This document shows, one piece after another, positions 373-29,066 of a DNA stretch of 43,910 nucleotides. The stretch lies in the IMG/VR virus record IMGVR_UViG_3300011445_000036, positions 1 through 43,910 of that record; one strand, written 5' to 3'. The DNA comes from a virus. A model generated the notes under the pieces. That model was not told the DNA's origin. It saw only the letters and a list, made by a program, of their open reading frames with translations, and ran no database searches. The translations under genes and the position numbers were made by a program. Position 1 is the first letter of the stretch. The number at the start of each line of letters is the position of its first letter.

Positions 373-389
373 AATTTAATACCTCTTTA

Positions 390-980: not shown

Positions 981-1000
981 TTATAAAACCTCAATAATAG

Positions 1001-1501: not shown

Positions 1502-1513
1502 TTCTATATACCT

Positions 1514-2320
1514 TTATAGTACGCCTAAATTTTTCCAATCTTTTACCATGCCTTCTAATGTGATGCCTGGTAAACCTTTCATGGAATTAAACACTGTTTT
1601 TAAATCATCTGGTAAATCATTATAACCAACAGTTTTGCCTTTAGTTGTAGATCGTGATTCAGCTTTGTCTGAAGCCGTTCCTACATGGGGAGCAGTAGTT
1701 TTTTCAAACCTGTGCGGGAAAAATGATTTAACATCTTTTTCTACTTGCATATATAAAGTATGGTCATCTATATGTGGATTAGAAGTTCTTAATTCTACTT
1801 CTTTATCACAGGCATATTGTCGCATAGCTTTATTTTCGCTTGTCTTGGTATTAAACCAAGCATTATTTTTTTCTAAGAACTCTGATGCAGCAACAGGTAT
1901 TTCTGCTTCTACTTCTGGAACTTTCTTATGTTTTTCTGCTATTTCCTCAACGAGTTTAGTTGCTTCTTCAACATCCCCATTGTGAACAGCCTCTTTATGA
2001 AGTGATTTTAAATCATCAATTGCTTTTTTATATGATTTTAATTCGACTTCTTGATAAACTTTCTTCATGGCATTTAATTCAGCTTTAGCTTTATTTAAAG
2101 CACCGAACAATTCACCACGCTCGACAAAATCTCTAGCGGAACGCCAGTCTTCTGGATCTCCTTCAAAATCTGTTTTAGGTTTCCATCCTTGGGCTAGGGC
2201 TTTTTCTTCCCATTTTGAGACCTTACGTTCTGGTACTGATTCTTTAACTTCTTCTACTAATTTAATTTCTGAATCTTCTACTATTAAATCGGGAATCTCT
2301 ACTTTGTCTTCGTCTGACAT
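1514..2320 (-). CDS. Head scaffolding protein
   Basis: 268 residues, strongly acidic at the N-terminus. The signature segment WEEKALAQGWKPKTDFEG followed by DPEDWRSARDFVERGELF (about residues 37-73) is widespread in phage scaffold proteins. A long charged helical or coiled-coil stretch follows (about 75-140). The basic and hydrophobic C-terminus (DLKTVFNSMKGLPGITLEGM) is suited to capsid binding. It lies just upstream of the capsid genes, the usual place. It would organise capsid subunits during procapsid assembly and then be released. I see no protease active site, so a fused maturation protease is unlikely. Confidence 0.82.
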   Translation of the reverse strand: MSDEDKVEIPDLIVEDSEIKLVEEVKESVPERKVSKWEEKALAQGWKPKTDFEGDPEDWRSARDFVERGELFGALNKAKAELNAMKKVYQEVELKSYKKAIDDLKSLHKEAVHNGDVEEATKLVEEIAEKHKKVPEVEAEIPVAASEFLEKNNAWFNTKTSENKAMRQYACDKEVELRTSNPHIDDHTLYMQVEKDVKSFFPHRFEKTTAPHVGTASDKAESRSTTKGKTVGYNDLPDDLKTVFNSMKGLPGITLEGMVKDWKNLGVL

Positions 2321-2335
2321 ACTTATTACCTCAGT

Positions 2336-2659
2336 CTATTTTACGCCTATGACATCTGTGTCATGCATGTATCTATATGTTACTTTCTTACCACTATCAT
2401 CTTCTTCTATCATTTCTACACCAGCATAGCCTTTAAACATAACATGATCCCCAACAGCAAAGTCTGGTTCAACGTTAGGTTGTCCGGGAAGTGGGGTAAA
2501 TGCCAATTTACCAACTTCTAAAACTACGCCTGTTTTTTGGCCTAATTGATGTTTATCTTCTACTTCTTTAGGCAACGCTATTAAACCGCCTGCGTCCTTT
2601 ACTATATCAGAAGTATCTACTTTAACTAATACCATAAATTTCGTTGGTCGATAGGGCAT
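2336..2659 (-). CDS. GroES-like co-chaperonin
   Basis: 107 residues that follow the GroES (Cpn10) pattern throughout. There is a first beta strand (KFMVLVKVD), then a Gly-Gly plus hydrophobic patch (AGGLIALPKEVEDK) in the place of the mobile loop that docks on GroEL, then GVVLEVGK, the FAVGDHVMFKGYAGVEM strand pair, and the closing YRYMHDTDVIGV, which corresponds to the 'sdILAIV' end of GroES. Phages such as T4 (gp31) use their own co-chaperonin to fold the capsid protein in host GroEL. Here the gene sits between portal and scaffold, which fits that role. No phage GroEL is visible in the window. Confidence 0.85.
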   Translation of the reverse strand: MPYRPTKFMVLVKVDTSDIVKDAGGLIALPKEVEDKHQLGQKTGVVLEVGKLAFTPLPGQPNVEPDFAVGDHVMFKGYAGVEMIEEDDSGKKVTYRYMHDTDVIGVK

Positions 2660-2662
2660 TTC

Positions 2663-2878
2663 TTAGTCCTCGTTAATAAGGGATTCTATAAATTCTTTAT
2701 TCGTACTTAATAATAATCCTTGGATAATACCAGCTTTATATCTAACAAAGCCGGAATCTACTTGTGTGCTACATAATGATGTATGTAATTTTTTACAAGA
2801 TTCATCAACATGTTTATTAATTAAATTAATAATTGCTTTTGTTTGTCTGCTTTCGAACCATTCATCTAAATCATTCAT
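2663..2878 (-). CDS. Small hypothetical protein overlapping the portal gene
   Basis: 71 residues starting at the ATG at 2878, which overlaps the portal stop (gATGAATGA), a translational-coupling arrangement. A longer start at 2923 is possible, but it would lie deep inside the portal gene. The protein is helical and charged (MNDLDEWFESRQTKAI) with two Cys residues too far apart to be a clear zinc site. Function unknown. Position suggests co-expression with the head genes. Confidence 0.6.
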   Translation of the reverse strand: MNDLDEWFESRQTKAIINLINKHVDESCKKLHTSLCSTQVDSGFVRYKAGIIQGLLLSTNKEFIESLINED

Positions 2879-4811
2879 CTGAACTCGTCCTATCTGCTTT
2901 AGAAATCTTTTCGTCTGAATCAATTTGTCTATGTTTAATTAAGATATCAGCATGGTCTTTTTCGACTTTAGCTGCTTTTTCTGTAGCATTAATATACATT
3001 TCTTTTTCACGTATATCTAGTTCACGAGATTTTAATTGTCTATCTTTATCTTTATCATCTCGATCATTAACTAATTGTTGAATCTTGATCTGTTTATCTA
3101 ATAGGGATTGTTTAGCATCTTCTGCTTTGGTTGCAGCGTCCATTTGAATTTTAATCATAGCTGGATCTGGTGCAGATTGTACAGGTTCTAATAATCTTTC
3201 AGCCCCATCTAATTGTAATTCTGTAAGTACCATTTCCGTCACAGCAGCGGGATTTAATTGTGCTTGTGGATATTGTTGTGCAAATTGTGTGATAGCTTGA
3301 ACTTTTAATAAACGTTGGGCTTCTGAACTCATATGAGGGTCAGCGACGGGTTTTACGTCTAAATTCATATCTGCATAATCATCAGCAAAGACTGCTAACT
3401 CATCGTCGAGTAATCTAAAATATTCTTCTGAATCTAAATAAAGCTTATTAATTCGAACAAGTTTTTGGAATTCTTGTTTTAATGAGATATATAATCGTTT
3501 TTGTATTGAATTATATAACTTCATGCTTTGATCTAACATTGCCATTACAGTAGTAGCGGGGACGTTTTGTGCTGGTTGATCACCAGTCATTATGTCAGAA
3601 ATTGATGCTAGTTCTTTACCAGATTGAATTAATAATTGTAGTAGTTGAAATAATACAGGCGAAGGTTCTGTAAATTTTAACTGAAAGAAATTCTTTGCTA
3701 AATCTTCCATATTACCACTATCAATAGTAGTAAATACTCCTAATTTAGCTTTGATTTGTTTGTCTTTAAGTTTTAATCCTTTTGATACAAATCCGGTAGA
3801 CGATGTTGCTAATGTACCTGCATTAACTAAAATGTTGAATACACCGTTAATGGTGCTATTAACATGGAATAATAATTGCGCTAATCCTAAATGATGGAAC
3901 CCGCCATCGGGAGCGGGTAAACAGTGATAGGCAGTAAAATACTCTACTGGTTTAATATATTTAACTTCTTTGGTCGCATCGACTGTCGTAATACCTTCTA
4001 AATCAAAGCGGGCAACGATGTTTAATACTTCTCTATTTTCTTCTAATACTGAAACTATATAAGGTTCAGCATAGGTATCTTCGTCTAAATCTAAATATCT
4101 ATGTTGTTCTAAGACCCAAAAAATAGGATCTTCATCTCCATCGTCTCCTGCTTTTCTCAATTTTTCTAAATCAATATCACAAAATATCCCTTCTCGAATC
4201 TTTTCGATGATTTCGTTACGATACATAGGATAACGATGAGTAATACGTCGTGCAGTTTTTAAAGAGCTAATTTTATCATTAACTACTATTTGATCTGGAG
4301 TACCTATGCTAAAGCCGGGTTTTCGTTCACAAGTATCATAAAATGTTTTACGAAATACTGTACCATACATAGGTATCATTAATGTCAATTTATCAGTATC
4401 TGCTAACCAAGAATCAGATTCTACTAATAATTGATAAGATAGGTGGTCAGAGAGACGTTTTGCCTTTTGTGCCTTACTACCGTCTGGATCTTTGCCTAAT
4501 ACAGTAAAGTGAGCTATTTTATTATCTCTATGGATTAAAGCCATAGATCGAGCAGCAAGAGCATTACATGCATTAGGAATCAAAGGATACTTAATATTAG
4601 CGGCTTTTTCCCAAGGCTCATTTTTTACTTCAACTGTTTGTTTAGCTATCTTTAATGCTTTATCTAAAATATCTTTCTTTTCTTTGCGCGAATCAACATC
4701 AATTTGAAATTCTTTACAAACTAATTCACCAATTCGATGTAGTTCGTCATCTTCTAATTCATGTGCAATATTAGGTAATGAATGATACTTTATTAATTTT
4801 TCAAGTGACAT
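2871..4811 (-). CDS. Portal protein
   Basis: 646 residues. The order and size fit a podovirus portal: it starts 2 bases after the large terminase stop and precedes the scaffold. The body has the typical portal mix, with an N-terminal helical wing, a segment with PWEKAANIKYPLIPNACNAL, a stem-like region (about 320-420), and a conserved-looking helix with PATTVMAMLDQSMKLYNSIQ. The C-terminal quarter (about 560-640) is a highly charged Lys/Asp/Glu/Gln coiled coil, as in the barrel of P22-like portals. The portal forms the dodecameric DNA channel and docks the terminase. Confidence 0.87.
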   Translation of the reverse strand: MSLEKLIKYHSLPNIAHELEDDELHRIGELVCKEFQIDVDSRKEKKDILDKALKIAKQTVEVKNEPWEKAANIKYPLIPNACNALAARSMALIHRDNKIAHFTVLGKDPDGSKAQKAKRLSDHLSYQLLVESDSWLADTDKLTLMIPMYGTVFRKTFYDTCERKPGFSIGTPDQIVVNDKISSLKTARRITHRYPMYRNEIIEKIREGIFCDIDLEKLRKAGDDGDEDPIFWVLEQHRYLDLDEDTYAEPYIVSVLEENREVLNIVARFDLEGITTVDATKEVKYIKPVEYFTAYHCLPAPDGGFHHLGLAQLLFHVNSTINGVFNILVNAGTLATSSTGFVSKGLKLKDKQIKAKLGVFTTIDSGNMEDLAKNFFQLKFTEPSPVLFQLLQLLIQSGKELASISDIMTGDQPAQNVPATTVMAMLDQSMKLYNSIQKRLYISLKQEFQKLVRINKLYLDSEEYFRLLDDELAVFADDYADMNLDVKPVADPHMSSEAQRLLKVQAITQFAQQYPQAQLNPAAVTEMVLTELQLDGAERLLEPVQSAPDPAMIKIQMDAATKAEDAKQSLLDKQIKIQQLVNDRDDKDKDRQLKSRELDIREKEMYINATEKAAKVEKDHADILIKHRQIDSDEKISKADRTSSDE

Positions 4812-4813
4812 TT

Positions 4814-6298
4814 CTAATAACCTGTTATAGGGTCGCGTGTATCACGAAGATTAGACATTCTTTCAGTAAATCCTTCTTCAAGTATAGGATTTGTTTCTGC
4901 AATGTTTAAACCAGAGATCACTAAATAACGCATTGCGTCCATTAAGTGGTCATGTTCTTTAACAATTTCTACTTTACCACTTGCCAACTGTTTTCTGCGG
5001 TAGATTCGCAGTTCTCCTAATGTATTAACTAAATTCTTAAAAATCTTTAGTTTTTGAGACGTCATACGTGTATAAACGAGATGAAGTCCTGTATCTACTG
5101 CATTCTTTGCAGGAGATATGTTTAACTGATATTCGCTACTATATTCATAAAATAACCGAGATCCATCTTTTTGTGAACGTCCTCGTGATGCGGGATCAAT
5201 TACTCCGGGAATCCAGTCTCCCCGTAGTTTGATATTATGCGCATGTGAGGCAGGTTCTGCTTGGCCTCTATAATATTCATCATATAAATAAAGCACGTCG
5301 GTTTCAGGATCTAATGCTCCCCAAATAGCAGCAGTCTTATTCCAACCAACATCTAAACCGAAAACTCTTGGCCACCATTCAGGAATCTTAAAAGGTTCAC
5401 AAACAATGTCTTCTTCTGCTATAGGATATACCGCACCTGCTCCTAAATAAGGTATACCATGCTTTTTTGCTTGTCTTTGATATGGGGGTATCTCTGCCTC
5501 AAGCCGTTTATAATCTTCTGGTGTAATATGTGGAACATCATCCCAACTAACCATTGAGACCCATTTAAAGCCATGAGCACCTGGTTTTACTTGTCCATCT
5601 TTGAAAAACTTTAATACTGTTTCACTTAAGCCATCATCGGGAGTAAATGTAATTAATACAATACCACCAATCTTTGCAGTACGAATAACACATTCAGTAT
5701 AAACTTCTGGAGGGCTTTCTTCGTCTAACCAGACAACGTGAATATTTGTACCTTTAAAAGCTTTTACACCTTTCTCATATGACTTAAATGAAATATGACT
5801 TGTGCCACCAGTAATATGTCGAATGTAGAAATTATCCACTCCATTTGGTGTTCCTGGCTTTGCCGTTGGTTCTCCTACAATACAATCTTTGGGAATGGTG
5901 CCTGTTCCCATATCATTTTTAGCACCGAGTAATTCTAATTGTAACACATCACGTGTTGTTTCTGCAGAGTGTCCGGCTACCCATATTTTAACTGGATGTG
6001 TAAATTTTTTACCAACCCACCAAGAAGGATACTTACCTGTAGCATGATACGCTACTTCACAAGCTCCTGCAAATGTTTTACCTGTTCTATTACCTGCCAT
6101 AAAAATTCTTTCTTGAAAATCTTTACCAGCAGTAAAAAATTCTATATGACGAGGATAAAGTTCCCTCGCATGTATAACTCCGCCTAATAGATCAATTCCA
6201 TTTTCATCAGGAAAATAATAATCTATTTTGTTATACTTTAAACGAGTTTCTTTTTCTTTTAAAAGATCAAGAAGTCGTTCTTGTTTAGTTCTTTCCAT
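4814..6298 (-). CDS. terL: Terminase large subunit (packaging ATPase and nuclease)
   Basis: 494 residues. Walker A is GNRTGKT (69-75) and Walker B is VVWLDEE (188-194). A coupling segment follows with ITFTPDDGLS. The C-terminal RNase H-like nuclease shows GLDVGWN (Asp316) and DHLMDAMRY (Asp450/Asp454). This is the complete motor-nuclease layout of TerL proteins. It pumps DNA into the procapsid through the portal encoded by the next gene and cuts the concatemer. The start at 6298 overlaps the preceding small gene by 14 bases. Confidence 0.95.
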   Translation of the reverse strand: MERTKQERLLDLLKEKETRLKYNKIDYYFPDENGIDLLGGVIHARELYPRHIEFFTAGKDFQERIFMAGNRTGKTFAGACEVAYHATGKYPSWWVGKKFTHPVKIWVAGHSAETTRDVLQLELLGAKNDMGTGTIPKDCIVGEPTAKPGTPNGVDNFYIRHITGGTSHISFKSYEKGVKAFKGTNIHVVWLDEESPPEVYTECVIRTAKIGGIVLITFTPDDGLSETVLKFFKDGQVKPGAHGFKWVSMVSWDDVPHITPEDYKRLEAEIPPYQRQAKKHGIPYLGAGAVYPIAEEDIVCEPFKIPEWWPRVFGLDVGWNKTAAIWGALDPETDVLYLYDEYYRGQAEPASHAHNIKLRGDWIPGVIDPASRGRSQKDGSRLFYEYSSEYQLNISPAKNAVDTGLHLVYTRMTSQKLKIFKNLVNTLGELRIYRRKQLASGKVEIVKEHDHLMDAMRYLVISGLNIAETNPILEEGFTERMSNLRDTRDPITGY

Positions 6299-6530
6299 CA
6301 GTGTAAATCTTTAGAATGTGATTATCGAGTTTATCTTCTAAACGTTCTAATGTTCTTGTAATCTTATCTTCTACTTTTGTTACACGTAAATCTGTATCTG
6401 CTAAATCTTTTATAATAACTTCTACCTTACTAGATAAATGAAAGAATTTAGTTAAAAACATCCATAAGGCACTTAAAGTAGCAATAGTGACTGTTATAAT
6501 ATGTGTTAAACCAAAATCTTCTATTTGCAT
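6285..6530 (-). CDS. Small membrane protein with coiled coil, possibly lysis-related
   Basis: 81 residues: one hydrophobic segment (about 10-30, HIITVTIATLSALWMFLTKFF) followed by a charged helix with heptad character (VEVIIKDLADTDLRVTKVEDKITRTLERLEDKLDNHI). The layout, a short N-terminus with one membrane helix and a coiled coil, is seen in many phage lysis accessory proteins. It lies directly after the holin. A spanin-like role is only a guess because no lipobox or partner gene is seen. Confidence 0.6.
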   Translation of the reverse strand: MQIEDFGLTHIITVTIATLSALWMFLTKFFHLSSKVEVIIKDLADTDLRVTKVEDKITRTLERLEDKLDNHILKIYTDGKN

Positions 6531-6531
6531 A

Positions 6532-6930
6532 TTATTTCCTAGTCTTCTCGAAAGTTCTATAGCCAGCTAAACCTAACATACCTAAAAGTACAGGCATTAT
6601 TTCAGTCATACTTACGATAGGTAGATTTGTTAAAGGATGACCAGTAACCATGCAAATAAATATTAACATTGGTTGTAATACAAATGTCCAAATAAATGCA
6701 GCAGCGCAAGTCCAACCGATCGCGGGTCTCCAGCCGGCTACAAATAATGATTCATGTTTAGCTTCTTCGACATTTACTTTAATTTGTTCAAGTAATGGAG
6801 CATCTTCTGCTAACCGAGCCTCAATAGCTACTCTAGCAGCTTCTAATTTATCTTTAGGACTATCAGGTAATACGCTGGAAAGAATCTTCTCAATGATACT
6901 ACCAATACCTGTAATTAATAATGGATTCAT
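6532..6930 (-). CDS. Holin of the three-TM type (Holin_3TMs)
   Basis: 132 residues. An N-terminal amphipathic part precedes the motif FVAGWRPAIGWTCAAAF (about 62-78), which is characteristic of the three-transmembrane holin family known from phages and gene transfer agents. A second membrane segment (LQPMLIFICMVTG) and a third (IMPVLLGMLGLAGY) follow. The basic C-terminus FEKTRK is usual for holins. It would form the membrane lesion that times lysis. Its ATG follows the preceding gene's stop directly (TAAATG). It is unusual in lying between the two terminase genes. Confidence 0.78.
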   Translation of the reverse strand: MNPLLITGIGSIIEKILSSVLPDSPKDKLEAARVAIEARLAEDAPLLEQIKVNVEEAKHESLFVAGWRPAIGWTCAAAFIWTFVLQPMLIFICMVTGHPLTNLPIVSMTEIMPVLLGMLGLAGYRTFEKTRK

Positions 6931-7146
6931 TTAATATCCGTATAGCCAACTAACATTTGTATTATTTCGTTTATTAATGGTAATTCGTAATCCTAGGATA
7001 GATAAATCAACGCCTTCAGGGTAAATTCGTAAATAGGTTGGAAAACTTATTCTAAAATATCCAGTACTATCATAATGAATTTCAGCTAAACTAACCAATA
7101 AAGAAAATTTACCAAGTCCTATAGCACAGTGTGGAATAATATTCAT
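6931..7146 (-). CDS. Hypothetical protein, 71 aa
   Basis: 71 residues with alternating hydrophobic and polar residues that suggest a small beta-rich domain (YFRISFPTYLRIYPEGVDLSILGLRITI). No signal peptide or catalytic motif. It is packed between its neighbours with no gap (the upstream stop ends at 7147, and the holin ATG follows at 6930), which supports it being real. Function unknown. Confidence 0.55.
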   Translation of the reverse strand: MNIIPHCAIGLGKFSLLVSLAEIHYDSTGYFRISFPTYLRIYPEGVDLSILGLRITINKRNNTNVSWLYGY

Positions 7147-7464
7147 TTAGGCTCTTTTAAAACTATTTTCTTCGACAATATATTTATTAACAAAACCTAC
7201 TCTACAAGAAATTCGGGTTTGACCTGCATGGCGTACTTTATCTAAATTCCGTCGAATAATTAAGTAACTTTCACCTAATTCGAACAAGGTACTTCCGATA
7301 CTATCAATAACTGCTTCGGTAATTAACTCATCCCATTCATCAGTATCAGGACAAATTGCACCTTTTTCAAAAGTTAAAATATCAATTTTATTACCATCTA
7401 TAATTTCATAGTGTCTATCAGAATAACCAAATACTTTAAATCCGAAATCTTCTAGTTTTTTCAT
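7147..7464 (-). CDS. Hypothetical protein, 105 aa
   Basis: 105 residues, mixed alpha/beta, acidic in the middle (DTDEWDELITEAVID) and basic at the end. Its ATG overlaps the stop of the upstream gene by one base (TAATG), so the two are translationally coupled. No known motif seen. It may be a virion or packaging accessory because it is transcribed with the terminase genes, but this is inference. Confidence 0.55.
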   Translation of the reverse strand: MKKLEDFGFKVFGYSDRHYEIIDGNKIDILTFEKGAICPDTDEWDELITEAVIDSIGSTLFELGESYLIIRRNLDKVRHAGQTRISCRVGFVNKYIVEENSFKRA

Positions 7465-7640
7465 TAAGATTTTACTTCCACAACATCATTTAATAAATCA
7501 ATAGGGTACCAGGATGGCACTTCAGCTAGTCCGTTAATAACTTTACTGGATATAACTTCTCTTTTTATTAAACCAGTAGGACTGTCAACTAAGTCTATAA
7601 AAGTCTCATAGTCTCGATTCGATTTAATATAATAAGTCAT
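7464..7640 (-). CDS. Hypothetical protein, 58 aa
   Basis: A 58-residue frame that starts at an ATG overlapping the small-terminase stop (TAATG) and ends on the start of the next gene. The sequence begins MTYYIKSNRDYETFIDLVD and includes a WYPIDLLNDVVEV segment near the C-terminus, like small phage proteins with a compact beta-alpha fold. The start/stop overlaps on both sides support it as a gene. Function unknown. Confidence 0.6.
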   Translation of the reverse strand: MTYYIKSNRDYETFIDLVDSPTGLIKREVISSKVINGLAEVPSWYPIDLLNDVVEVKS

Positions 7641-8143
7641 TATTTAACCTCTTCACTAGTGGAATCAACAATATTTAACGTTGGTTCTAAATGTCGTAAA
7701 CGTTTAATCTCATCATCTAACTGTTCTTTCGTTAGAGATGAAGTAGCATCAATGTTAATGTGTAAAGACTCACTTCTATGTTGGTATTCTTTAGGAAATC
7801 TGGATTTCATCATAAATTCTATCATTGCAGCAGAGCCTTTAATTTTGCCCGTTGCTACATCTTCAGCTATCTTTTCCCAAGTAGCCTGAGCATATATTTC
7901 TCCTAATTCATCTGCTTCTCTAAAATCTGGGTATTCTCTACAATATCTGTAATAAGTGTCTTTTACAATTCCTAACACAGCCATTACTTGTGTTTTACTT
8001 TTACCTTCCATCCGATATGATAATGCAGTATAAGCCATTTCAGGTTTATACTCTGGAGGTCTTCCTAATCGCATAGGAAATTTAGTAGGTATTATCTCTC
8101 CTTCAATACCTACTTGTGACATTTCTTTACCTACTTGTGACAT
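7640..8143 (-). CDS. Terminase small subunit (DNA recognition)
   Basis: 167 residues. After a polar N-terminus, the segment LGRPPEYKPEMAYTALSYRMEGKSKTQVMAVLGIVKDTYYRYCREYPDF contains a helix-turn-helix (SKTQVMAVLGIVKDTYYRYC), followed by ADELGEIYAQATWEKIAEDVATG, a pattern typical of phage small terminases. It would bind the packaging start site and deliver DNA to TerL. Two start codons are possible because a 16-base direct repeat duplicates ATGTCACAAGTAGGTA at residues 1 and 8. The outer ATG is used here. The SD signal is weak (AGAG). Confidence 0.75.
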   Translation of the reverse strand: MSQVGKEMSQVGIEGEIIPTKFPMRLGRPPEYKPEMAYTALSYRMEGKSKTQVMAVLGIVKDTYYRYCREYPDFREADELGEIYAQATWEKIAEDVATGKIKGSAAMIEFMMKSRFPKEYQHRSESLHINIDATSSLTKEQLDDEIKRLRHLEPTLNIVDSTSEEVK

Positions 8144-8192
8144 TGTAACTCTATATATGGTTGCGGGTAAACGATTTGCACGTTTCTGTTGT

Positions 8193-8267
8193 TGGTGGCA
8201 GCGATTGGATTTGCACCAATGACCTTCAGGTTATGAGCCTGCTAATCTACTACTGATCTACGCTGCT
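8193..8267 (-). tRNA. tRNA-Met, anticodon CAT, with encoded CCA
   Basis: Reading the minus strand gives a full cloverleaf: acceptor AGCAGCG/CGCTGCC, D-stem GATC/GATT, anticodon stem GCAGG/CCTGA around the loop CTCATAA (anticodon CAT), T-stem ATTGG/CCAAT with loop TGCAAAT, and ACCA at the end. Position 1-72 is an A-C mismatch. The anticodon stem lacks the three G-C pairs of initiators, so it is elongator Met, or Ile2 if its C34 is lysidine-modified. The T-loop reads TGC rather than the usual TTC. Its 5' end overlaps the stop of the HNH gene. Confidence 0.85.
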
Positions 8268-8596
8268 TTAATTCTGCGTTGTTGTGTAATAATACGGTGG
8301 CAATTAGCACATCTTATTTCACATTTAGCTATTTCTTCTTTAATTCGTTTTAAAGAATTACTATCCCGCACAAGAGTACTTATATCTTTTATTTTAATAC
8401 CTTTTACATGATCAAATTCTAATACTCTAATATCATTATTACCACAATCAATACATTGAGAATTTCTTAATATATTTTCTCTATATTGTTTATTTCTTAC
8501 AATAATTGCTTTATTTAAAGCTCGAACTTTATCTTTATTCTTGTAATAATATCTGTTACTAGCTTTTGCTTGATCTTTTTTATTTTTGTAAGGCAC
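8258..8596 (-). CDS. HNH homing endonuclease
   Basis: 112 residues from a GTG at 8596 preceded by AGGTG; a TTG three bases further out is the alternative. The basic N-terminus is followed by CIDCG, LEFDHVKG (the HNH-type DH pair), and CEIRCANCHRIIT, so four Cys residues form a zinc site and His/Asp/His the active site. This is the common free-standing phage HNH type. The reading frame ends in CGTAG, which is also part of the tRNA acceptor and D-arm, so gene and tRNA overlap by 10 bases. Confidence 0.88.
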   Translation of the reverse strand: MPYKNKKDQAKASNRYYYKNKDKVRALNKAIIVRNKQYRENILRNSQCIDCGNNDIRVLEFDHVKGIKIKDISTLVRDSNSLKRIKEEIAKCEIRCANCHRIITQQRRIKAA

Positions 8597-8599
8597 CAA

Positions 8600-8985
8600 G
8601 ACACCTCGTATTCTACTATTAAACTAACCCGCGATAGCTATATCCCTTGGAGCGGATATTTTAATAATTATCCCTTGTAGAGGATAGGGGGTGAGAGATG
8701 GGGGTGGTTACCCATAGCCTCCCGATACAAGTCGGGGCTCTACGTATACGCCTTTCTGTTATCACATTTGCCCATCGATAACTCTAAGGTTGGAGCTACT
8801 CTCACCATTCTTATAAAAAGTGCTAGTATTTACCGGTAAGAGTCTATTATCGACGACCCTGGGCTACTAGCTGGCCATTCTTAATTCGCGAATAGCGAAT
8901 AGTTATTTTTACTAGATTTTAGGAGCCTGTGGCTCGTGTATTGAGCGTTTCATCATTTATAGCCCACGGCTCTAGTAACCTTGTT
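8600..8985 (-). ncRNA. Highly structured non-coding region between promoter 8990-9018 and the HNH gene
   Basis: About 390 bases with no credible ORF but many nested pairings. ACTAGA/TCTAGT (8911-8916 with 8971-8976) encloses GAGCC/GGCTC. ATTCGC/GCGAAT is a hairpin at about 8885. GCTAGTA/TACTAGC pair at 8822-8828 and 8865-8871. GGTGAGAG/CTCTCACC (8690-8697 with 8799-8806) closes a multi-branch domain holding ATGGG/CCCAT, CCCGA/TCGGG and GTTATC/GATAAC. Two tandem hairpins with the same TATCC/GGATA stem lie at 8640-8659 and 8669-8686. A sigma-70 promoter points into it on the minus strand. It may be an untranslated leader or a free RNA. The end point is uncertain. Confidence 0.5.
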
Positions 8986-8989
8986 TATT

Positions 8990-9018
8990 ATATTAACACT
9001 TTCTTAAGTACCTGTCAA
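8990..9018 (-). promoter_or_regulatory. Sigma-70 promoter, minus strand
   Basis: The minus strand reads TTGACA (9018-9013), a 17-base spacer, then TAATAT (8995-8990). Predicted start is near 8983, just before the structured region 8600-8985 and upstream of the HNH gene, the tRNA and the packaging genes. Confidence 0.65.
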
Positions 9019-9044
9019 GTGTTATTTTCAATATATTTTAATAT

Positions 9045-9227
9045 TTATATTCCACCAGAAGATGCTGAGAACTTAATCCCGGTCATAATCGCGGGATGGG
9101 TACTAAAAGTAGGTTTATAAGTTAATTTTTCAGCACAAACTTCACAATTTGCTTCTACATCTTTGTTTTTTATCAATAATTCGATGGTTTTATCACATTT
9201 CTTACAAAAAAAGTCTAAAATAGGCAT
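9045..9227 (-). CDS. FmdB-type small zinc ribbon protein
   Basis: 60 residues starting MPILDFFCKKC, the hallmark N-terminus of FmdB/zinc-ribbon-8 proteins (MPIYEYxCxxC). Cys8, Cys11, Cys28 and Cys31 form two CxxC knuckles. The ATG at 9227 is chosen over a GTG at 9245 because it gives the family's standard start and leaves the promoter -10 box outside the gene. The predicted transcription start (about 9229) is almost at the ATG, so the mRNA may be leaderless or come from a promoter further upstream. Role unknown, probably regulatory or nucleic-acid binding. Confidence 0.72.
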   Translation of the reverse strand: MPILDFFCKKCDKTIELLIKNKDVEANCEVCAEKLTYKPTFSTHPAIMTGIKFSASSGGI

Positions 9228-9235
9228 AAATTCTC

Positions 9236-9264
9236 TATATAACACACTTCAAAAGGAAAGTCAA
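9236..9264 (-). promoter_or_regulatory. Sigma-70 promoter upstream of the zinc ribbon gene
   Basis: The minus strand reads TTGACT (9264-9259), a 17-base spacer, then TATATA (9241-9236). It would start transcription near 9229, at the ATG of the zinc ribbon gene. Confidence 0.55.
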
Positions 9265-9339
9265 ATCCGCAACTCTTTTGGGTTGTAATAGAATTACTTG
9301 TTTAACAGGGATAGTAAATTAAAAACAAAAAGATTTATA

Positions 9340-9438
9340 TATTATATATGGATCGCAGAGTATGATAGCGATCCCATAGCGGCCTTTAGCCCTTTATGCT
9401 TTCACTTGGGGTTTCAGCATAGGGCTATATGCCGCTTT
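9340..9438 (-). ncRNA. Candidate small RNA with two strong hairpins
   Basis: A perfect consensus promoter (9445-9473) places the start near 9438. The transcript would fold at once into a long hairpin: AGCGGC/GCCGCT (9431-9436 with 9378-9383) outside, AGCCCT/AGGGCT and ATGC/GCAT inside, with a 17-base loop (9400-9416). A second hairpin GGATCGC/GCGATCC (9368-9374 with 9350-9356) follows, then AT-rich sequence with U-runs further on. No ORF of note is present. The 3' end is a guess because the second hairpin lacks an immediate U-tract. Confidence 0.55.
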
Positions 9439-9444
9439 AAATGT

Positions 9445-9473
9445 ATTATACACAGTCTTAAAAAAGATGTCAA
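9445..9473 (-). promoter_or_regulatory. Perfect-consensus sigma-70 promoter, minus strand
   Basis: The minus strand reads TTGACA (9473-9468), exactly 17 bases, TATAAT (9450-9445). All 12 hexamer positions match consensus. No coding gene follows for about 200 bases, but a strongly paired RNA does. Confidence 0.8.
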
Positions 9474-9560
9474 GCATTATTTTAAAATAAGTACTAAATG
9501 TTACCGTTAGGGATGTTTTCAGGACTTAAAAGAGCTTTTTTATGGATATATTCCCGATCA

Positions 9561-9860
9561 GGAACTTAACGCGCATAGCGCGAGGGTTGTGACCCACAAG
9601 TCAACCCGAGCGTTCCAATTTTTTATATATGATTTAGTGTCCTGCTAAAAAGGACATATGAGTATGATGTAGAGCCACCGAGAGTGGTTGCCCACTTACC
9701 CCGGTGGTTACACATCTCATCATGGCACTCCGTTGGGAGTGGGTAGCGGATTTAGGGCTACCTGTGAGATTAATTGCTCCCTGTTGGGAGCCTCTAGAAT
9801 ACCCCGTTCCTTCTGGTAGGGGACAGCTTTGCTGGTACTTCTTCCGCCACATGGGACGGT
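9561..9860 (-). ncRNA. Candidate structured RNA downstream of promoter 9867-9895
   Basis: Locally GC-rich and packed with hairpins on the minus strand: CAGC/GCTG, CCCC/GGGG, GGCTCCC/GGGAGC (about 9776-9791), GGTAGC/GCTACC (9742-9762), CACTCC/GGAGTG (9726-9741), a long arm ATGATGT...ACATC plus CCACCG/CGGTGG with an inner AGTGG/CCACT and GCAA loop (9664-9723), TGTCCT/AGGACA near 9640-9655, and a three-way junction closed by GGAAC/GTTCC (9561-9616) holding GGGTTG/CAACCC and GCGC/GCGC. Two hairpins share the CTCCCAAC motif. It could be one long RNA or several. The 3' end is unknown. Confidence 0.5.
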
Positions 9861-9866
9861 AAGTTA

Positions 9867-9895
9867 ATTATAATATAGGGATTAAATTTAGTCAA
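9867..9895 (-). promoter_or_regulatory. Sigma-70 promoter, minus strand
   Basis: The minus strand reads TTGACT (9895-9890), 17 bases, TATAAT (9872-9867); 11 of 12 hexamer positions match consensus. Predicted start is near 9860, directly at the structured segment 9561-9860. Confidence 0.72.
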
Positions 9896-9976
9896 TAGTG
9901 ATTATCTAAATATAGTCATTTGATTGCATGGATAATTGAATGGATAGGTTTTGAAAAAAGTTCCTTCCCGCCAGGA

Positions 9977-10033
9977 AATCGGCTCTATTTTATAGGGAAA
10001 CATGAGCCGATTAATGAGCCTAATTGGCTCATT
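9977..10033. other. Two adjacent perfect hairpins sharing the same core
   Basis: AATCGGCTC (9977-9985) pairs with GAGCCGATT (10004-10012), and directly next to it AATGAGCC (10013-10020) pairs with GGCTCATT (10026-10033). The GGCTC/GAGCC cores are interchangeable, so alternative pairings between the two hairpins are possible. No U-tract follows on either strand, so they do not look like terminators. Strand of action unknown. Confidence 0.5.
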
Positions 10034-10850
10034 ATTAGAGGTAGTTTCTTCTTAAGTTAAATTAGTCAATATACTGACTGAATTTGTAAGTCCTTGTTTT
10101 AAAAAGAGATTCTGTAGGGGAATGAGTATACCTATATATACTCGCCAAATAATCTTTTGCCCCCACCCCCTCGACAGCCGAAGGCATTAATCTAAGCCTA
10201 ATGATGTAAATATAAGGCTGAGTATGCAAGGCGCCAGCTATATTCGTAGTAATAGTACGAAAATATGGGTTATAACAGCCATAGAGGCCTATAGAAGCGA
10301 CGATCTCTATCATGGTAGTAGAGGGATATAGGGTATAATGTACTACGCGTAATTTGAAATGTATTAAAGAGAAGGAGAATGGAAGGAAATAATACTAATA
10401 TATCTATATCTGAATACTAGATACAAGCGCAATCTTATGTATAAACAAGTAACAACTAATGGTATAACTTATTGATTATTCAAATAAATAGAGATTATTA
10501 GACTTATTAGGATGTAACATATTGTTTAGTATTACTATTTCAACCAAACGTATAATGATATCTGATGACCTCTGATAAGATGTATGAACCCTCGCGGTTG
10601 AATACTGGAAGTCCTGTTACCAAATTACAAGGATACTGTCTTAATCATCCGAACTGGGTACTAGTGAGGTGTTGATCGTCGTTAAGTATAGTCTGTTTAT
10701 TAAGTGATTATTAAGAGTTAAAAATAAAATTTGAATATAGGATATTGTCTAGCGTTGCTAGTCTTTATTAAGGATATATTATAATAAAGGATATGCCTAT
10801 TTTCTTTATTATAAGTTTTAATAAAACCTTAAGGTAAATCGTGAATAAAT
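10034..10850. other. Long gap without a convincing gene
   Basis: About 800 AT-rich bases. I see scattered hairpins (GAGTATA/TATACTC near 10115-10140, TTCGTA/TACGAA near 10235-10260, CTAGC/GCTAG near 10755, ATAATAAAG/CTTTATTAT near 10780-10812). There is a TATAAT at 10334 with no good -35, and a 13-codon ORF at 10379 with AAGGAG very close to its ATG. Possible ORFs here have unconvincing composition. The stretch separates the divergent late (minus) and early (plus) arms, so it may hold regulatory or origin functions, but nothing specific can be assigned. Confidence 0.4.
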
Positions 10851-22961: not shown

Positions 22962-24911
22962 ATGAATTTAGGGGAAGTACTAAAAGCAGATGTTTCTAAG
23001 CAGCGTGCTAAAGAGATGTCTGTTAATGAATACTTGGAACTAATTAAAACTAATAAGGAAGTCTTATTATCACCTGCGGGTAGATTACTTAAAGCTATTG
23101 GTGAGCCTGAGTTAGTTGATACATCAAAAGATCCTCGTTTAAGTCGTATATTTTCTAATCGTATTATTAAACGTTATGCTGTATTTGACGACTTCTTCGG
23201 CATAGAAGAAGCTATTGAACGTATTGTTGACTTCTTAAAACATTCAGAACAAGGTTTAGAAGAATCTAAACAAGTATTGTATTTATTAGGTGCCGTAGGT
23301 ACGGCTAAGTCTTCATTAGCGGATAGGCTTAAACAATTAATGGAAAAAGAACCATTCTATACCGTGGCCTTTATTGATGCTAAAGGGAGAGTCGTTCAAT
23401 CTCCGGTATTAGATCATCCATTATCGTTATTTGCTTCTATTGATGCAAAAAACGCATTAAAAAAACAATTTGGTGTCTTAGATCAACATTTCAGAGTACC
23501 TCCATCTGGATGGTTAATTAAACGTATTCAAGAAGTTGAAGGCGATTTAACAAGATTTAAAGTATTAAAATTACATCCCTCTAATCACCTACAGCGTGCT
23601 ATTGGTAGAACAGAAGCCGGGGATGAAAATACCCAAGATGTCTCTATTCTGGTTGGTAAAATGGATATTCGTAAATTAGAATTGTTTGCTCAGAACGATC
23701 CTGATTCCTATTTATATAGTGGCATGCTATGTAAAGCTAACCAAGGTATCGGTGAATTCGTAGAAATGTTTAAAGCATCTCTGCCAGTCCTTAATCCATT
23801 GCTGACCGCTACTCAAGAACATAAATATCAAGGTACCGAACCTATTGGCGAGTTACCGTTTGATGGTGTAATTCTTGCGCATAGTAATGAATCTGAATGG
23901 CAGAAATTTAAGAATTCTAAAACTAATGAAGCTATTTTAGATCGTATTTATTTGGTAAAAGTACCGTATAACTTACGACCAACTGAAGAAGTACAGATTT
24001 ATCGTAAACTTCTTAATAATTCATTATTAAAAGATTCACCTGTTGCGCCTCGTACATTGAAAATGCTAGCTGATTTCTGTGTACAAAGTCGTATGATTAA
24101 TAATGAACACGTTAATACGATGACGAAATTACGTGTTTATGATGGTGAGAATGTTAAAGAAAAAGATGCTCGGGCTAAGCCTTTGTTAGAATATAAACAA
24201 ATGGCAGGGCTGGATGAAGGTATGGATGGTCTAGGTACGCGATTTGCATTTAAAGTGTTATCTAAAACCTTTAACTACGACCTAACTGAAGTTGCTGCTA
24301 ATCCTGTGCACCTATTGCACGTGCTAGATAAACATGTTAAAGCTGAACAATTTTCTAAAGATAAAGAGGCCTCTTTATTAAGTTTTATTGAAAGTGAACT
24401 TAAACCTCAATATACTGAATTCTTAACTAAAGAGATTCAAACGGCATATATTGAATCTTATAGTGAATATGGTCAAAATGCCTTCGACCAATACATTAAG
24501 TTAGCTGAATTGTGGTTAGCAGATGAAGACTTTGTGAATCATGATACCGGCACAATCATGAATCGATTAGCTATTGATAAAGAGTTAGATAAAATTGAGC
24601 GACCTGCTGGGATTATTAATCATAAGGATTTTAGACAAGAAGTGGTCACTTTCTGTTTAAGACATAGGGCTTCTAATAGTAATCAAAACCCCAAATGGAC
24701 TGCTTATGAAAAGCTTAAAGAAGTTATTGAGAAAAAACTCTTTAATTCTGCTGAAGATTTATTGCCTGTCATTAGTTTTGGTGCTAAAAAATCAGAAGAT
24801 GATGCTAAAAAACATAAAGCTTTTGTGGATAGAATGGTTGACTTGGGCTATACTGAGAAACAAGTGAGATTACTTGTTGAATACTATCAACGTGTTCGTA
24901 GGAGTGAATAA
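22962..24911 (+). CDS. prkA: PrkA-family serine protein kinase / AAA protein
   Basis: 649 residues, full length compared with E. coli YeaG (about 644). The family segments are all present: SVNEYLELIKTNKEVLLSPAGRLLKAIGEPE at the N-terminus, YAVFDDFFGIEEAIERIVDFLKHSEQG, Walker A as GAVGTAKSS (110-118), PPSGWLIKRIQEVEGD, and DRIYLVKVPYNLRPTEEVQIY in the AAA core, plus the C-terminal kinase-like region ending VRRSE. In bacteria PrkA acts with YeaH and SpoVR/YcgB in starvation and stationary-phase responses. Here yeaH and spoVR homologues follow in the same operon. Walker A has Ala-Val and Thr-Ala where bacterial proteins usually have Pro-Val-Gly-Gly. Confidence 0.93.
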   Translation: MNLGEVLKADVSKQRAKEMSVNEYLELIKTNKEVLLSPAGRLLKAIGEPELVDTSKDPRLSRIFSNRIIKRYAVFDDFFGIEEAIERIVDFLKHSEQGLEESKQVLYLLGAVGTAKSSLADRLKQLMEKEPFYTVAFIDAKGRVVQSPVLDHPLSLFASIDAKNALKKQFGVLDQHFRVPPSGWLIKRIQEVEGDLTRFKVLKLHPSNHLQRAIGRTEAGDENTQDVSILVGKMDIRKLELFAQNDPDSYLYSGMLCKANQGIGEFVEMFKASLPVLNPLLTATQEHKYQGTEPIGELPFDGVILAHSNESEWQKFKNSKTNEAILDRIYLVKVPYNLRPTEEVQIYRKLLNNSLLKDSPVAPRTLKMLADFCVQSRMINNEHVNTMTKLRVYDGENVKEKDARAKPLLEYKQMAGLDEGMDGLGTRFAFKVLSKTFNYDLTEVAANPVHLLHVLDKHVKAEQFSKDKEASLLSFIESELKPQYTEFLTKEIQTAYIESYSEYGQNAFDQYIKLAELWLADEDFVNHDTGTIMNRLAIDKELDKIERPAGIINHKDFRQEVVTFCLRHRASNSNQNPKWTAYEKLKEVIEKKLFNSAEDLLPVISFGAKKSEDDAKKHKAFVDRMVDLGYTEKQVRLLVEYYQRVRRSE

Positions 24912-25105
24912 TGAAATTTATCTTTGAAAAAGAAGTAAATCATGGAGATTATAGTACCACTACGCACGTAGAGCAAACAGTGAGTCAATCTTCTAATGCA
25001 CATAATATTGTAAATAGTTTGTTACATTTTGCAACAAATGCTGGATATTCATACGAGTTTTTATTGAAAGGTGCTAAATCTTTGACTAAAGACTTACCTG
25101 AATAG
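24911..25105 (+). CDS. Hypothetical protein, 64 aa
   Basis: 64 residues coupled to prkA (TAATG overlap). Polar N-terminus rich in Thr and Ser, then a helix (NIVNSLLHFATNAGYSYEFLL). Function unknown. The tight coupling could indicate a PrkA partner. Confidence 0.55.
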   Translation: MKFIFEKEVNHGDYSTTTHVEQTVSQSSNAHNIVNSLLHFATNAGYSYEFLLKGAKSLTKDLPE

Positions 25106-25114
25106 GAGCGAGTA

Positions 25115-25261
25115 ATGATATTTAATATGACAACTGAAGACCTTGAGCGGATCAAAAAAATAAAACACAATTTCTATTTGTGGGCTAAAGCTAATCCTAG
25201 TAAGTTTAGAGAGTGGGTTTTAGCAATATTACATAAGCCAAGAATATTTCATGATGAATAA
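25115..25261 (+). CDS. Hypothetical protein, 48 aa
   Basis: 48 residues, basic and helical, with two Trp residues (FYLWAKANPSKFREWVLAILH). TAGGAG lies before the ATG. It is the last gene before the structured leader of the yeaH homologue. Function unknown. Confidence 0.52.
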   Translation: MIFNMTTEDLERIKKIKHNFYLWAKANPSKFREWVLAILHKPRIFHDE

Positions 25262-25558
25262 GCCCAGGGTACTTAGCGTTAAAAGCGCGTGCGGCTAAAT
25301 GAGTACCTTGGCATTAACGTAGTCTTCGTAAGGACTTAAACTTTACGCGGAGTTGTATATCTAAACTAGTTAGAAAATAGATATGATAACTCATTATTGA
25401 TAGAATTTAACTAGTAATAGAGGAAACGCCTGCGGGCGTGGAACTCTTCCTTACTAGTTAACTGCTCCGCCCGCCTCTCCTTCGGGTGTCGAGCAAACGG
25501 GAGTACGGCAGTCTTCCGACCCAAACCAAAACTGCCACTAATTCTAGTAAGGAGTGTT
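25262..25558 (+). promoter_or_regulatory. Structured leader with a possible translational switch, upstream of yeaH homologue
   Basis: A 297-base gap without a gene in an otherwise gapless operon. Seen pairings: CCAGGGTACT/AGTACCTTGG (25264-25273 with 25302-25311) around TTAGC/GCTAA; AGTCTT/AAGGACT (about 25320-25336); TATATCTA/TAGATATG (about 25355-25385); AACTAGTAA (25409-25417) with TTACTAGTT (25451-25459) around AGAG/CTCT and ACGCC/GGCGT; GGCAGT/ACTGCC (25507-25536). TCCTTACTAG (25448-25457) is also a perfect 10-base complement of CTAGTAAGGA (25544-25553), which contains the ribosome binding site. The two pairings exclude each other. No ligand or protein class is recognised. Confidence 0.62.
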
Positions 25559-26800
25559 ATGGCTATTATTAATCGTAGTAAACAACAGCAAAACAAAGCC
25601 GCTGGCAATCGTCAACGGTTCTTAGATCGATATAATCGACAAATCCAAAAGAAACTTAAAGATTATTTTAAACGTAAATCTATTACTGATACAGGTAATG
25701 GTCAACATACTATTACTATAGATAAAAATGACGTAGGCGAACCAACATTTAATAATAATCCGCATACAGGCACTAAACCTCGGATATTTCCTGGTAATAA
25801 ATCCTATTCCAAAGGTGATTGGATTCAATCACCTGACGGTTCAGGTGGCGATGGAAAAGGCAATAAAGGTCATGGTGGAACAGATTCTGAAGATGATTTT
25901 TTATTTCATTTAAATCGTGAAGAATTTATGCAATATTTGTTTAAAGATTTAGAATTACCGGATTATATTTTAAAACAATTAGTTGAATCCGAAGACTGGA
26001 AATATAAAAAGAAAGGGATTGTTCGACATGGCTTACCTAATTCGGTGCATGTAATTAAATCCCTAGAAGCAGCAAATATGCGTAAGATAGCATCAAGAGC
26101 TGCGTTAGAGGCCGAAATTGCTTTATTAGATCCTGAGAATGATAAAGATAAGATTGAAGAATTAAAGAAACAAAAAGATAAAATTCCTTGGATTGATGAT
26201 TTTGATTTACGATATAAAACCTTAGTTAAAGATCCTGTGCCTATAAGTAAAGCTGTAATGGTCTTATTATTAGATGTATCAAGTTCTATTACTGAAAAGA
26301 TGAAAGATCGTGCTAAACGATTCTTTTATCTAGTCTATTTATTTTTAACTACTCAATATCGTCATGTTGATATAGTCTTTTTAATTCATACTACTAATTG
26401 TATCGAAGTCACCGAAGAAGAGTTTTTTAATACGAGAGTTACTGGTGGGACAGAATTTCTTAATTCATTTGAAAAAGTAGAAGAAATCTTAACATCTCGA
26501 TATGATACACAGTCTTGGAATGTTTATTTAACTCAAGTTTCGGATGGGGACGTAAGTTTTGAAGACGGTACGAAAAGTGCTATCTTTTTAAATGATAAAC
26601 TATTACCAATAATCCAATTTTATGCTTATTGTAATGTAACCATGGATGATGTAGTTACATTTGGAGTTTGGTATGGCTATATACGAAAACTATTGTTACA
26701 TACTGCAAATGATAAAAAAGCAAGATTTTGTATATTAGATTCAAATAAAAGTGTCTTTAGAGCACTTGAAGATTTATTTAAACATAATTTAGCGGACTAA
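25559..26800 (+). CDS. YeaH/YhbH-family protein (DUF444, von Willebrand A-like)
   Basis: 413 residues, close in length to E. coli YeaH (427). NRQRFLDRYNRQI near the N-terminus, a Gly-rich linker (SGGDGKGNKGHGG, about 95-107), FLFHLNREEFMQYLFKDLELP, and a VWA-type metal site DVSSS (239-243) in AVMVLLLDVSSSITEKMKDRAKRFFYL. Then HTTNCIEVTEEEFF, VTGGTEF, QVSDGD and LLPIIQFYAYCNV follow the family in order. YeaH homologues are genetic partners of PrkA. The gene is preceded by the structured leader and an AAGGAG site. Confidence 0.93.
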   Translation: MAIINRSKQQQNKAAGNRQRFLDRYNRQIQKKLKDYFKRKSITDTGNGQHTITIDKNDVGEPTFNNNPHTGTKPRIFPGNKSYSKGDWIQSPDGSGGDGKGNKGHGGTDSEDDFLFHLNREEFMQYLFKDLELPDYILKQLVESEDWKYKKKGIVRHGLPNSVHVIKSLEAANMRKIASRAALEAEIALLDPENDKDKIEELKKQKDKIPWIDDFDLRYKTLVKDPVPISKAVMVLLLDVSSSITEKMKDRAKRFFYLVYLFLTTQYRHVDIVFLIHTTNCIEVTEEEFFNTRVTGGTEFLNSFEKVEEILTSRYDTQSWNVYLTQVSDGDVSFEDGTKSAIFLNDKLLPIIQFYAYCNVTMDDVVTFGVWYGYIRKLLLHTANDKKARFCILDSNKSVFRALEDLFKHNLAD

Positions 26801-26805
26801 TTACT

Positions 26806-27546
26806 ATGTTAATTAAATCAGGATTACCATGTCCGAATTGTACTTCATCCGATGCTTTGGCTAAGTATGAAAATGGTACTTATTGTTTCTCTTGTAAATA
26901 CTCTACATTAGAAATTATTAAAACATTAAAAAATCAGAATCAAGAGAATTTAACATTAACACCCAACCAAGCCGACTGGGTTTCTTTAGATTCACATAAA
27001 CATATTTCTGCCTATACGTTCTTAAAATCTTATCATATAAATCAACAACTTATCGATAAATACCAACTCATGTGGTCTCCTCAGACGAATCGATTAGTAT
27101 TGCCGTTTATTTATAAAACTAAATGTGTAGGGGGACAATTACGTTCACTCGACAAACGTCCCATGAGAAAATATTTAAATGTTGGAGATACCGGAATATG
27201 GAATCCTAATAACTTATTAGCGACTATAGTCGCTAACTGGGCAATGACGACTATAGTCGTCGTAGAAGATATTATCTCTGCTATACGAATTAATGAAATC
27301 TTACCAGCCGTTGCTTTATGCGGCACTAAAACAGATAATTCTACTAAGGAAACCTTAAGGAAACTAGGTAAAACAATTATTTTATGGTTAGATTCTGATA
27401 TTCCGGGACAAAATGCTTGCAAAAAGTTAAAATGTAGTTTACAATTAACTAATGATGTAAAAGTAATAAAAACTGAATTAGATCCGAAATGTTATAAAAA
27501 GGCAGATTTAGAATCTTATTTAATTGCTGCTACTGTAGGTAAATAA
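26806..27546 (+). CDS. DNA primase, zinc-binding plus Toprim domain
   Basis: 246 residues. The zinc-binding domain has CPNC (9-12) and CFSC (27-30), like T7 gp4 primase. The Toprim core has VVVEDIISAIR (Glu154) and ILWLDSDIPGQ (Asp196, Asp198). The middle segment RLVLPFIYKTKCVGGQLRSLD is the typical RNA polymerase-type strand pair. It would make primers for the DnaB-like helicase/PolA replisome. It sits between the yeaH and spoVR homologues and overlaps spoVR by one base. Confidence 0.87.
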   Translation: MLIKSGLPCPNCTSSDALAKYENGTYCFSCKYSTLEIIKTLKNQNQENLTLTPNQADWVSLDSHKHISAYTFLKSYHINQQLIDKYQLMWSPQTNRLVLPFIYKTKCVGGQLRSLDKRPMRKYLNVGDTGIWNPNNLLATIVANWAMTTIVVVEDIISAIRINEILPAVALCGTKTDNSTKETLRKLGKTIILWLDSDIPGQNACKKLKCSLQLTNDVKVIKTELDPKCYKKADLESYLIAATVGK

Positions 27547-29066
27547 TGACATTATTATATACTTCTGAAGAATGGTCAGAAGAGATTATTGAGAACTTAT
27601 GGGATGCCGTAGAAGAACGCGGTAAGTTTTATGGTCTTAATTATTATCCTCCTCAAATAGAAATTATTTCTGCTACTCAAATGTTAGATAATTATAGTTC
27701 TCATGGTTTACCTGTTATTTATGACCATTGGAGTTTTGGTAAATCTTTTATTGCTAATCAACAAGCATATGAAAAAGGTTATCAGGGATTAGCGTTTGAA
27801 ATTGTTATTAATACTAATCCTAGTATTTGTTATATTATGGAATCAAATACTACGACTATGCAATTATTGGTGCTCGCTCATGCAGCAATAGGTCATAGTA
27901 CTTTCTTTAAAAACAACTACTTATTTAAAGAATGGACGGATGCTTCAACAATTATTGAATTCTGTCTCTATGCCAAACGATTTATTAAGAAATGTGAACA
28001 ATTATACGGACGTCAATTAGTAGAATCTACTTTAGACAGTGCCCATTCATTACAATATTTTGGTGTTGATAAATATAAACGTGTTCATACGAAAACAAAA
28101 AAACAACAAAAAGAATATAATGAACGATTGGTAGACGAAAAACGTAAATTAGTTCATGAATTATACAAAGATGAATTAAGTCATGTTACTAATCCACCAG
28201 ACTTAGATGTCTATGAAACTGAGTTAGAGGTGGGTGCGTATTATACTAATGAAGCCGATCCAGATGAAAATTTATTAGAGTTTTTAAAACAAAAATCAAC
28301 AATTTTACGTCCTTGGCAGAAAGAGGTTATTAATATAATACAATATCTAGCTCAATATTTTTATCCTCAAATGCAAACTCAAGTTACTAATGAAGGTTTT
28401 GCGACCTTTTGGCATTATACAATAATGACTGATTTATATGATATGGGGAAAATCTCTGAAAGTTCTTATCTTCAATTTTTACATAGCCATAGTTCAGTGA
28501 TTTATCAACCCGCTGCATTTCATTATAGTAATTATTATAAACAATCCTTTCCTAACCGTCATTATTCAGGAATTAATCCGTATGCGTTAGGTTTTGCTAT
28601 TTATCGAGATATTCGGAGAATCTGTGAGAACCCTACTGATGAAGATAAAAAGTTGTTTCCTAATTTAATTGGTAAAAACTGGTTAGATGAAGTTAAATAT
28701 GCTATGGAGAATTTTAATGATTCAGGTTTTATACTTCAGTATCTGTCGCCTAAAGTAGTTCGAGATTTACAATTAATGGTTACTTCTGCCGCTGTGCCAC
28801 AAGCGATGTATGGTTCAAATGTGGTAGAAGTCACGCAAGTACATGATGATAATGACTTTTTAATGATTAGAAAACAATTATCTGAAAATTATAATTTGAC
28901 AAATCGCTTACCACAAATTATAATTAAAGAGAGTCGAGAACCGGCGCATAGAGTAACATTACAACATTTAAAAACTTACGATCAAGAATTAGATGTCAAG
29001 TCTGCAATGGATACAATCCATAAATTTAAGTTTTTATGGGGCAAAGGTGAAGTTAGTTTACATTAA
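27546..29066 (+). CDS. spoVR: SpoVR/YcgB-family protein
   Basis: 506 residues against about 510 for E. coli YcgB. Hallmark blocks: IYDHWSFGKSF (58-68), GLAFEIVINTNPSICYIMESNTTTMQLLVLAHAAIGHSTFFKNNYLF (81-127, with His112 and His117), LRPWQKEVINIIQYLAQYFYPQMQTQVTNEGFATFWHY, NPYALGFAIYRDI, and VTLQHLKTYDQELD near the end. Family members act with PrkA and YeaH in bacterial stress physiology; their biochemical activity is not settled. The glutamates and histidines in the central block could bind metal. Confidence 0.93.
   Translation: MTLLYTSEEWSEEIIENLWDAVEERGKFYGLNYYPPQIEIISATQMLDNYSSHGLPVIYDHWSFGKSFIANQQAYEKGYQGLAFEIVINTNPSICYIMESNTTTMQLLVLAHAAIGHSTFFKNNYLFKEWTDASTIIEFCLYAKRFIKKCEQLYGRQLVESTLDSAHSLQYFGVDKYKRVHTKTKKQQKEYNERLVDEKRKLVHELYKDELSHVTNPPDLDVYETELEVGAYYTNEADPDENLLEFLKQKSTILRPWQKEVINIIQYLAQYFYPQMQTQVTNEGFATFWHYTIMTDLYDMGKISESSYLQFLHSHSSVIYQPAAFHYSNYYKQSFPNRHYSGINPYALGFAIYRDIRRICENPTDEDKKLFPNLIGKNWLDEVKYAMENFNDSGFILQYLSPKVVRDLQLMVTSAAVPQAMYGSNVVEVTQVHDDNDFLMIRKQLSENYNLTNRLPQIIIKESREPAHRVTLQHLKTYDQELDVKSAMDTIHKFKFLWGKGEVSLH
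28896..28924 (+). promoter_or_regulatory. Perfect-consensus sigma-70 promoter inside spoVR
   Basis: TTGACA (28896-28901), exactly 17 bases, TATAAT (28919-28924); all 12 hexamer positions match. It would give extra transcripts of the SSB-like and exonuclease genes, which start at 29082 and 29652. Confidence 0.62.

Follow-up and report, generated by a model that had tools for sequence, protein, structure and literature searches.

In the four-segment scheme of ermC, pairing of segments 1:2 together with 3:4 seals the Shine-Dalgarno (SD) sequence, whereas pairing of 2:3 leaves it open. The rearrangement of ermC has been described for translational attenuators of this type (PMC5118997). In phage lambda, RNase III binds the 5′ UTR of cIII and thereby relieves an inhibitory structure (PMC2777011). 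The DNA analysed here (the window) is an entire IMG/VR virus record of 43,910 bp. It contains a yeaH homologue preceded by an intercistronic gap, and the RNA of this gap is predicted to form competing helices, one of which covers the yeaH SD.

The right arm of the window encodes a DnaB-like helicase, DNA polymerase A, PrkA, two small ORFs, the gap, YeaH/DUF444, a primase-like Toprim protein, SpoVR and an exonuclease (Table 1). The Toprim gene separates yeaH from spoVR, so that replication genes are interspersed with those of the stress module. The YeaH start at 25559 agrees with homologues, which share this starting point in the alignment, and the N-terminus is complete. ARAGORN and cmscan revealed no group I intron, tmRNA or RNase P in the gap, and these assignments were dropped in view of the missing matches and the full YeaH N-terminus.

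Table 1. Positions of genes and predicted RNA elements around the yeaH leader (window coordinates).
Feature	Position	Strand	Evidence
prkA homologue (AAA_PrkA + PrkA)	22962-24911	+	Pfam
Small ORF, 64 aa, between prkA and leader	24911-25105	+	
Small ORF, 48 aa, stops where leader starts	25115-25261	+	
Intercistronic structured leader (probable), 297 nt, from 48-aa ORF to yeaH	25262-25558	+	no plausible ORF; GC; strand-specific fold z
Hairpin H1, 12-14 bp stem	25262-25312	+	
Hairpin H2	25327-25347	+	
Hairpin H3, loop carries segment 1	25350-25392	+	
Segment 1 (AACTAGTTAGA), predicted partner of segment 2 early in transcription	25364-25374	+	
Segment 2 (TTTAACTAGTAA), partner segment 1 or 3	25406-25417	+	
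Hairpin H4 (helix 2:3), predicted default state	25407-25461	+	P 0.45-0.99 by parameter set; hairpin z -4.7
Segment 3 (TTCCTTACTAGTTAA), partner segment 2 or SD segment 4	25447-25461	+	
Hairpin H5, 9-nt loop CCUCUCCUU	25463-25495	+	
Segment 4, with SD AAGGAG of yeaH	25544-25554	+	
yeaH homologue (DUF444, PF04285)	25559-26800	+	Pfam E 6.8e-109
Primase-like Toprim gene	26806-27546		
SpoVR homologue	27546-29066	+	Pfam E 4.8e-129

Between the leftward and rightward arms of the window lies another long region (8600-10350) without ORFs of at least 100 aa. Its local GC content is 43-46%, it contains many strong hairpins on both strands, and its 150-nt z scores reach about -4, which ranks with the most stable windows in the genome. 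An Rfam scan of this region gave no match; the region could hold one or more additional noncoding RNAs.

The preliminary description had called the gap before yeaH the only large one in the operon. This was borne out: within 12.2-36 kb, 25262-25558 is the sole region longer than 75 nt that lacks + strand ORFs of at least 40 aa. Its GC content is 45% (53% in 25402-25540) vs 34% for the phage genome. The + strand RNA of the gap folded with a z score of -3.5, and none of 300 shuffles was as stable; the fold of the - strand was ordinary (z -0.6). Windows of the same size elsewhere had a mean z of -0.6 (sd 1.4), and 3 of 98 reached -3, so the stability of the gap lies in the tail of the distribution and is not unique. 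Stability confined to the + strand points to an RNA read in the direction of the operon and argues against operators or an origin. No intrinsic terminator was found within the gap. We consider it likely that the gap specifies a structured + strand RNA leader.

A DNA element, i.e., ACTAGT operator copies or a replication origin, was suggested by three ACTAGT copies spaced 43-45 bp apart in the gap, out of 11 genome-wide. However, the structure is strand-specific and hence RNA-like, and two of the copies simply form the opposite arms of a single hairpin, as is inevitable for a palindrome. ACTAGT is not enriched elsewhere; for this reason the operator or iteron assignment was dropped, and a DNA element of either kind is hardly credible. 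Also in this part of the window, a near-identical 14-nt direct repeat (25191-25204, CTAATCCTAGTAAG; 25538-25551, CTAATTCTAGTAAG) lies on either side of the leader and of the 3′ end of the 48-aa ORF. It may be due to chance.

The base pairing proposed in the preliminary description proved exact. TCCTTACTAG (25448-25457) is fully complementary to CTAGTAAGGA (25544-25553), AACTAGTAA (25409-25417) is fully complementary to TTACTAGTT (25451-25459), and the additional copy AACTAGTT is present at 25364-25371. Two of the helices are longer than first stated. Helix 2:3 (25407-25417:25451-25461) has 11 bp and helix 3:4 (25447-25457:25544-25554) has 11 pairs including one U.G; helix 1:2 (25365-25374:25406-25415) has 10 pairs including one G.U. 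All four segments share a CTAG core, which is self-complementary and makes multiple pairing easier. The 2:3 hairpin is incompatible with 1:2 plus 3:4, and 3:4 covers the yeaH SD. By prediction, therefore, an SD-covering helix competes with another stable helix, as in SD-sequestering cis-regulatory leaders. Further upstream, UUAACGU (25314-25320) on the 3′ side of H1 could pair instead with its complement GCGUUAA (25276-25282). The SD might instead be sealed by the loop of H5, since CUCCUU (25477-25482) in this 9-nt loop is a perfect 6-nt complement of AAGGAG (25549-25554). An H-type pseudoknot is a candidate here; its linkers would be 3 and 0 nt long, a geometry that such knots permit. However, 6-nt complements are common by chance, and sealing by H5 rather than by segment 3 is very unlikely.

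Chance expectation was determined by shuffling the sequence upstream of the ribosome-binding site. A perfect complement of at least 10 nt to this site was found in 0.46% of shuffles. The yeaH complement is the best among the 36 phage genes, and no other gene reaches 10 nt. A perfect SD complement combined with an overlapping 9-bp helix occurred in 2 of 20,000 shuffles, and with the third helix added, in none of 20,000. In the fairer test, with G.U permitted, an SD helix of at least 11 pairs was found in 4.3% of shuffles; when a strong competing helix was also required, the frequency was 0.15% for at least 9 bp and 0.01% for at least 11 bp. SD-sealing helices of at least 9 pairs within 3 kcal/mol were present in 53 of 600 shuffles (9%). 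The pairing pattern is thus better than chance, not overwhelmingly so; it is suggestive and not compelling, because it was picked after the sequence had been seen and because about 36 genes could show such a pattern.

The frequency of SD helices of this length (about 4% of shuffles) is in keeping with a structured RNA that has another job (an operon-derived small RNA, an element for stability or RNase processing, or a protein-binding RNA), the SD complement being incidental. The distribution of structure fits this as well: the strongest part is in 25262-25496, and the final 62 nt are structureless (z -0.5). However, the perfect 10-nt SD complement lies inside an arm of the strongest hairpin, a placement rare in shuffles. 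An RNA with another job is a serious, though doubtful, alternative.

Energies of the two states were calculated with four parameter sets. The probability of 2:3 was 0.97-0.99 with Turner 2004 and 0.90-0.96 with Turner 1999; that of 3:4 was 0.01-0.03 and 0.05-0.10, respectively. With Andronescu 2007 and Langdon 2018, 2:3 and 3:4 had about equal shares. The ensemble difference between the states ranged from -0.4 to +3 kcal/mol across the four sets. The sealed state, at just 1-3% under Turner 2004, speaks against a switch. In the default state, opening of the initiation region costs 8.6 kcal/mol, which ranks yeaH 30th of the 36 genes (poor accessibility); weaker pairs hold the region. The ribosome site had been described as free when the upstream helix forms, and this wording is too strong in view of the opening cost. 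Low accessibility and the dominance of 2:3 under both Turner sets are what would be expected if the structures merely lowered yeaH translation or shielded it from prkA, and no regulated switching took place. That the two states have almost the same energy under Andronescu 2007 and Langdon 2018 argues against such a static leader, which we consider unlikely.

The direct path between the two states has a barrier of about 16-25 kcal/mol (a heuristic upper bound). The finished RNA would therefore hardly switch, and the choice would fall during transcription. When folding of the growing chain was calculated, the probability of 1:2 was 0.98 with the RNA end at 25420 and near 0 once 25465 had been made. 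At 25465, 2:3 replaced 1:2, and 3:4 joined only past 25554. The thermosensor named in the preliminary description, in its usual form with SD pairing that melts on warming, finds no support in the predictions. For the SD-sealing helix 3:4, Turner 2004 predicts a probability of 0.0001 at 20 °C that grows to 0.008 at 37 °C and to 0.25 at 60 °C. Heating is thus predicted to favour the sealed state, which makes a thermosensor of the classical type unlikely. The weaker pairs near the SD are predicted to give way on warming, and the opening cost drops from 5.1 to 2.3 kcal/mol. A switch driven by kinetics or controlled by a protein is a better candidate than a thermosensor.

Of the central proposal, that mutually exclusive pairing controls the yeaH ribosome site, the exclusivity stands on paper, together with stability restricted to the sense strand and closeness in energy of the two states across the four sets. 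We infer the control of yeaH by the fold, and likewise the trigger. In our model the gap would be transcribed with the operon and fold as a multi-hairpin leader. Segment 2 would pair first with segment 1 and then be captured by segment 3 (H4), and segment 4, with the SD, would thereby lose its strongest partner. If 1:2 were held, or 2:3 blocked until segment 4 had been made, 3:4 could form and seal the SD. A protein of the phage or host bound to the RNA, a processing event or transcription kinetics would be candidate triggers; the analysis identified neither a ligand nor a leader peptide nor a regulator for the leader. A phage-specific multi-hairpin leader that sets yeaH translation by a choice between these exclusive helices is the reading we tentatively adopt, with less than even confidence. 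A regulated switch is plausible on this model, and YeaH could then be tuned separately from PrkA, as had been suggested.

We know of no established purpose for the PrkA-YeaH-SpoVR module in phages, and our literature search on phage YeaH, PrkA and SpoVR found nothing. If the model is correct, a phage mRNA would regulate one component of a captured bacterial module, and what triggers the switch would give a clue to the purpose of the module in phages. It is improbable that the leader represents a new class, i.e., a phage-encoded RNA switch that is decided co-transcriptionally, responds to a signal from the phage or host and regulates the phage stress module at YeaH. Even as a plain structured leader, it would be a well-bounded candidate RNA without an Rfam family.

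To place the leader among relatives, we used 44 viral YeaH loci with at least 300 nt of upstream DNA; some are near-duplicates, and the window's own locus was excluded. In 43 of them, yeaH starts no more than 140 nt from an upstream ORF of at least 40 aa. The exception (L005) has a distance of 179 nt that contains another short ORF. In this other phage, two small ORFs lie between prkA and yeaH (L005:4543-4994), without a noncoding leader. Neither a comparable noncoding leader nor an SD complement of at least 10 nt was present in any of the 44 relatives. Lack of both complementarities in relatives had been named in advance as counting against the proposal, and both are lacking in these 44; but their YeaH proteins are just 27-40% identical to that of the window. 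That these relatives manage without a leader ahead of yeaH also favours an RNA with another job. Among the relatives seen, the leader appears specific to this phage, and it may simply be lineage-specific.

Searches for the RNA itself gave similar results. A blastn search with the gap as query gave matches in phages and plasmids at chance level only. A scan of viral and genome contigs for exact 17-19-mers from the gap gave a chance match in a coding region (L179), one viral stretch (L180) and ten genome stretches (L181-L190), none of which extends under the model. Single-sequence covariance models recovered only the window itself, both when R1 and R2 were run on 75 sources and when R1 was run on 36 viral records. 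Records with a shared terminase had no YeaH match. Two short viral contigs (L016 and L017) are essentially identical to positions 2673-8586 and 1-6706 of the window and stop short of the gap; they are more copies of the same phage from other samples. Because identity to the nearest YeaH is no more than about 40%, the lack of an RNA homologue is weak evidence. A riboswitch of a known class, one of the architectures proposed earlier, found no backing in Rfam 15, where gathering and permissive scans gave nothing in the gap above chance.

The leader shares its basic device with translational riboswitches that sequester the SD, in that a competing helix would hide the SD; it differs from them in having no known aptamer family and no recognisable conserved core. 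The leader also resembles the ermC-type attenuator. Both have an exclusive choice of 1:2 plus 3:4 or 2:3, with the SD in segment 4, and this logic would suit leader-peptide attenuation, in which a ribosome on a short ORF picks the pairing. However, segments 1 and 2 are not crossed by any short ORF whose ribosome site is well placed, and hence no translated leader peptide with a credible start lies over segment 1. The sole ORF over segment 3 (GTG 25438-25461, VELFLTS) has its AGGA 13 nt away. Leader-peptide attenuation of the ermC kind is accordingly extremely unlikely, and the predicted phage default is 2:3, not 1:2 plus 3:4. With the lambda cIII leader, the shared principle would be a phage mRNA whose conformation governs access to the ribosome site. 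The two differ in the gene concerned and show no sequence or Rfam match, and in the present phage an intercistronic leader of 297 nt holds the pairing network, for which a role of RNase III is purely hypothetical. The leader of this phage is outside every family tested and, by analogy, would work like the known SD-masking leaders, with the conformational control of lambda cIII and the pairing logic of ermC.
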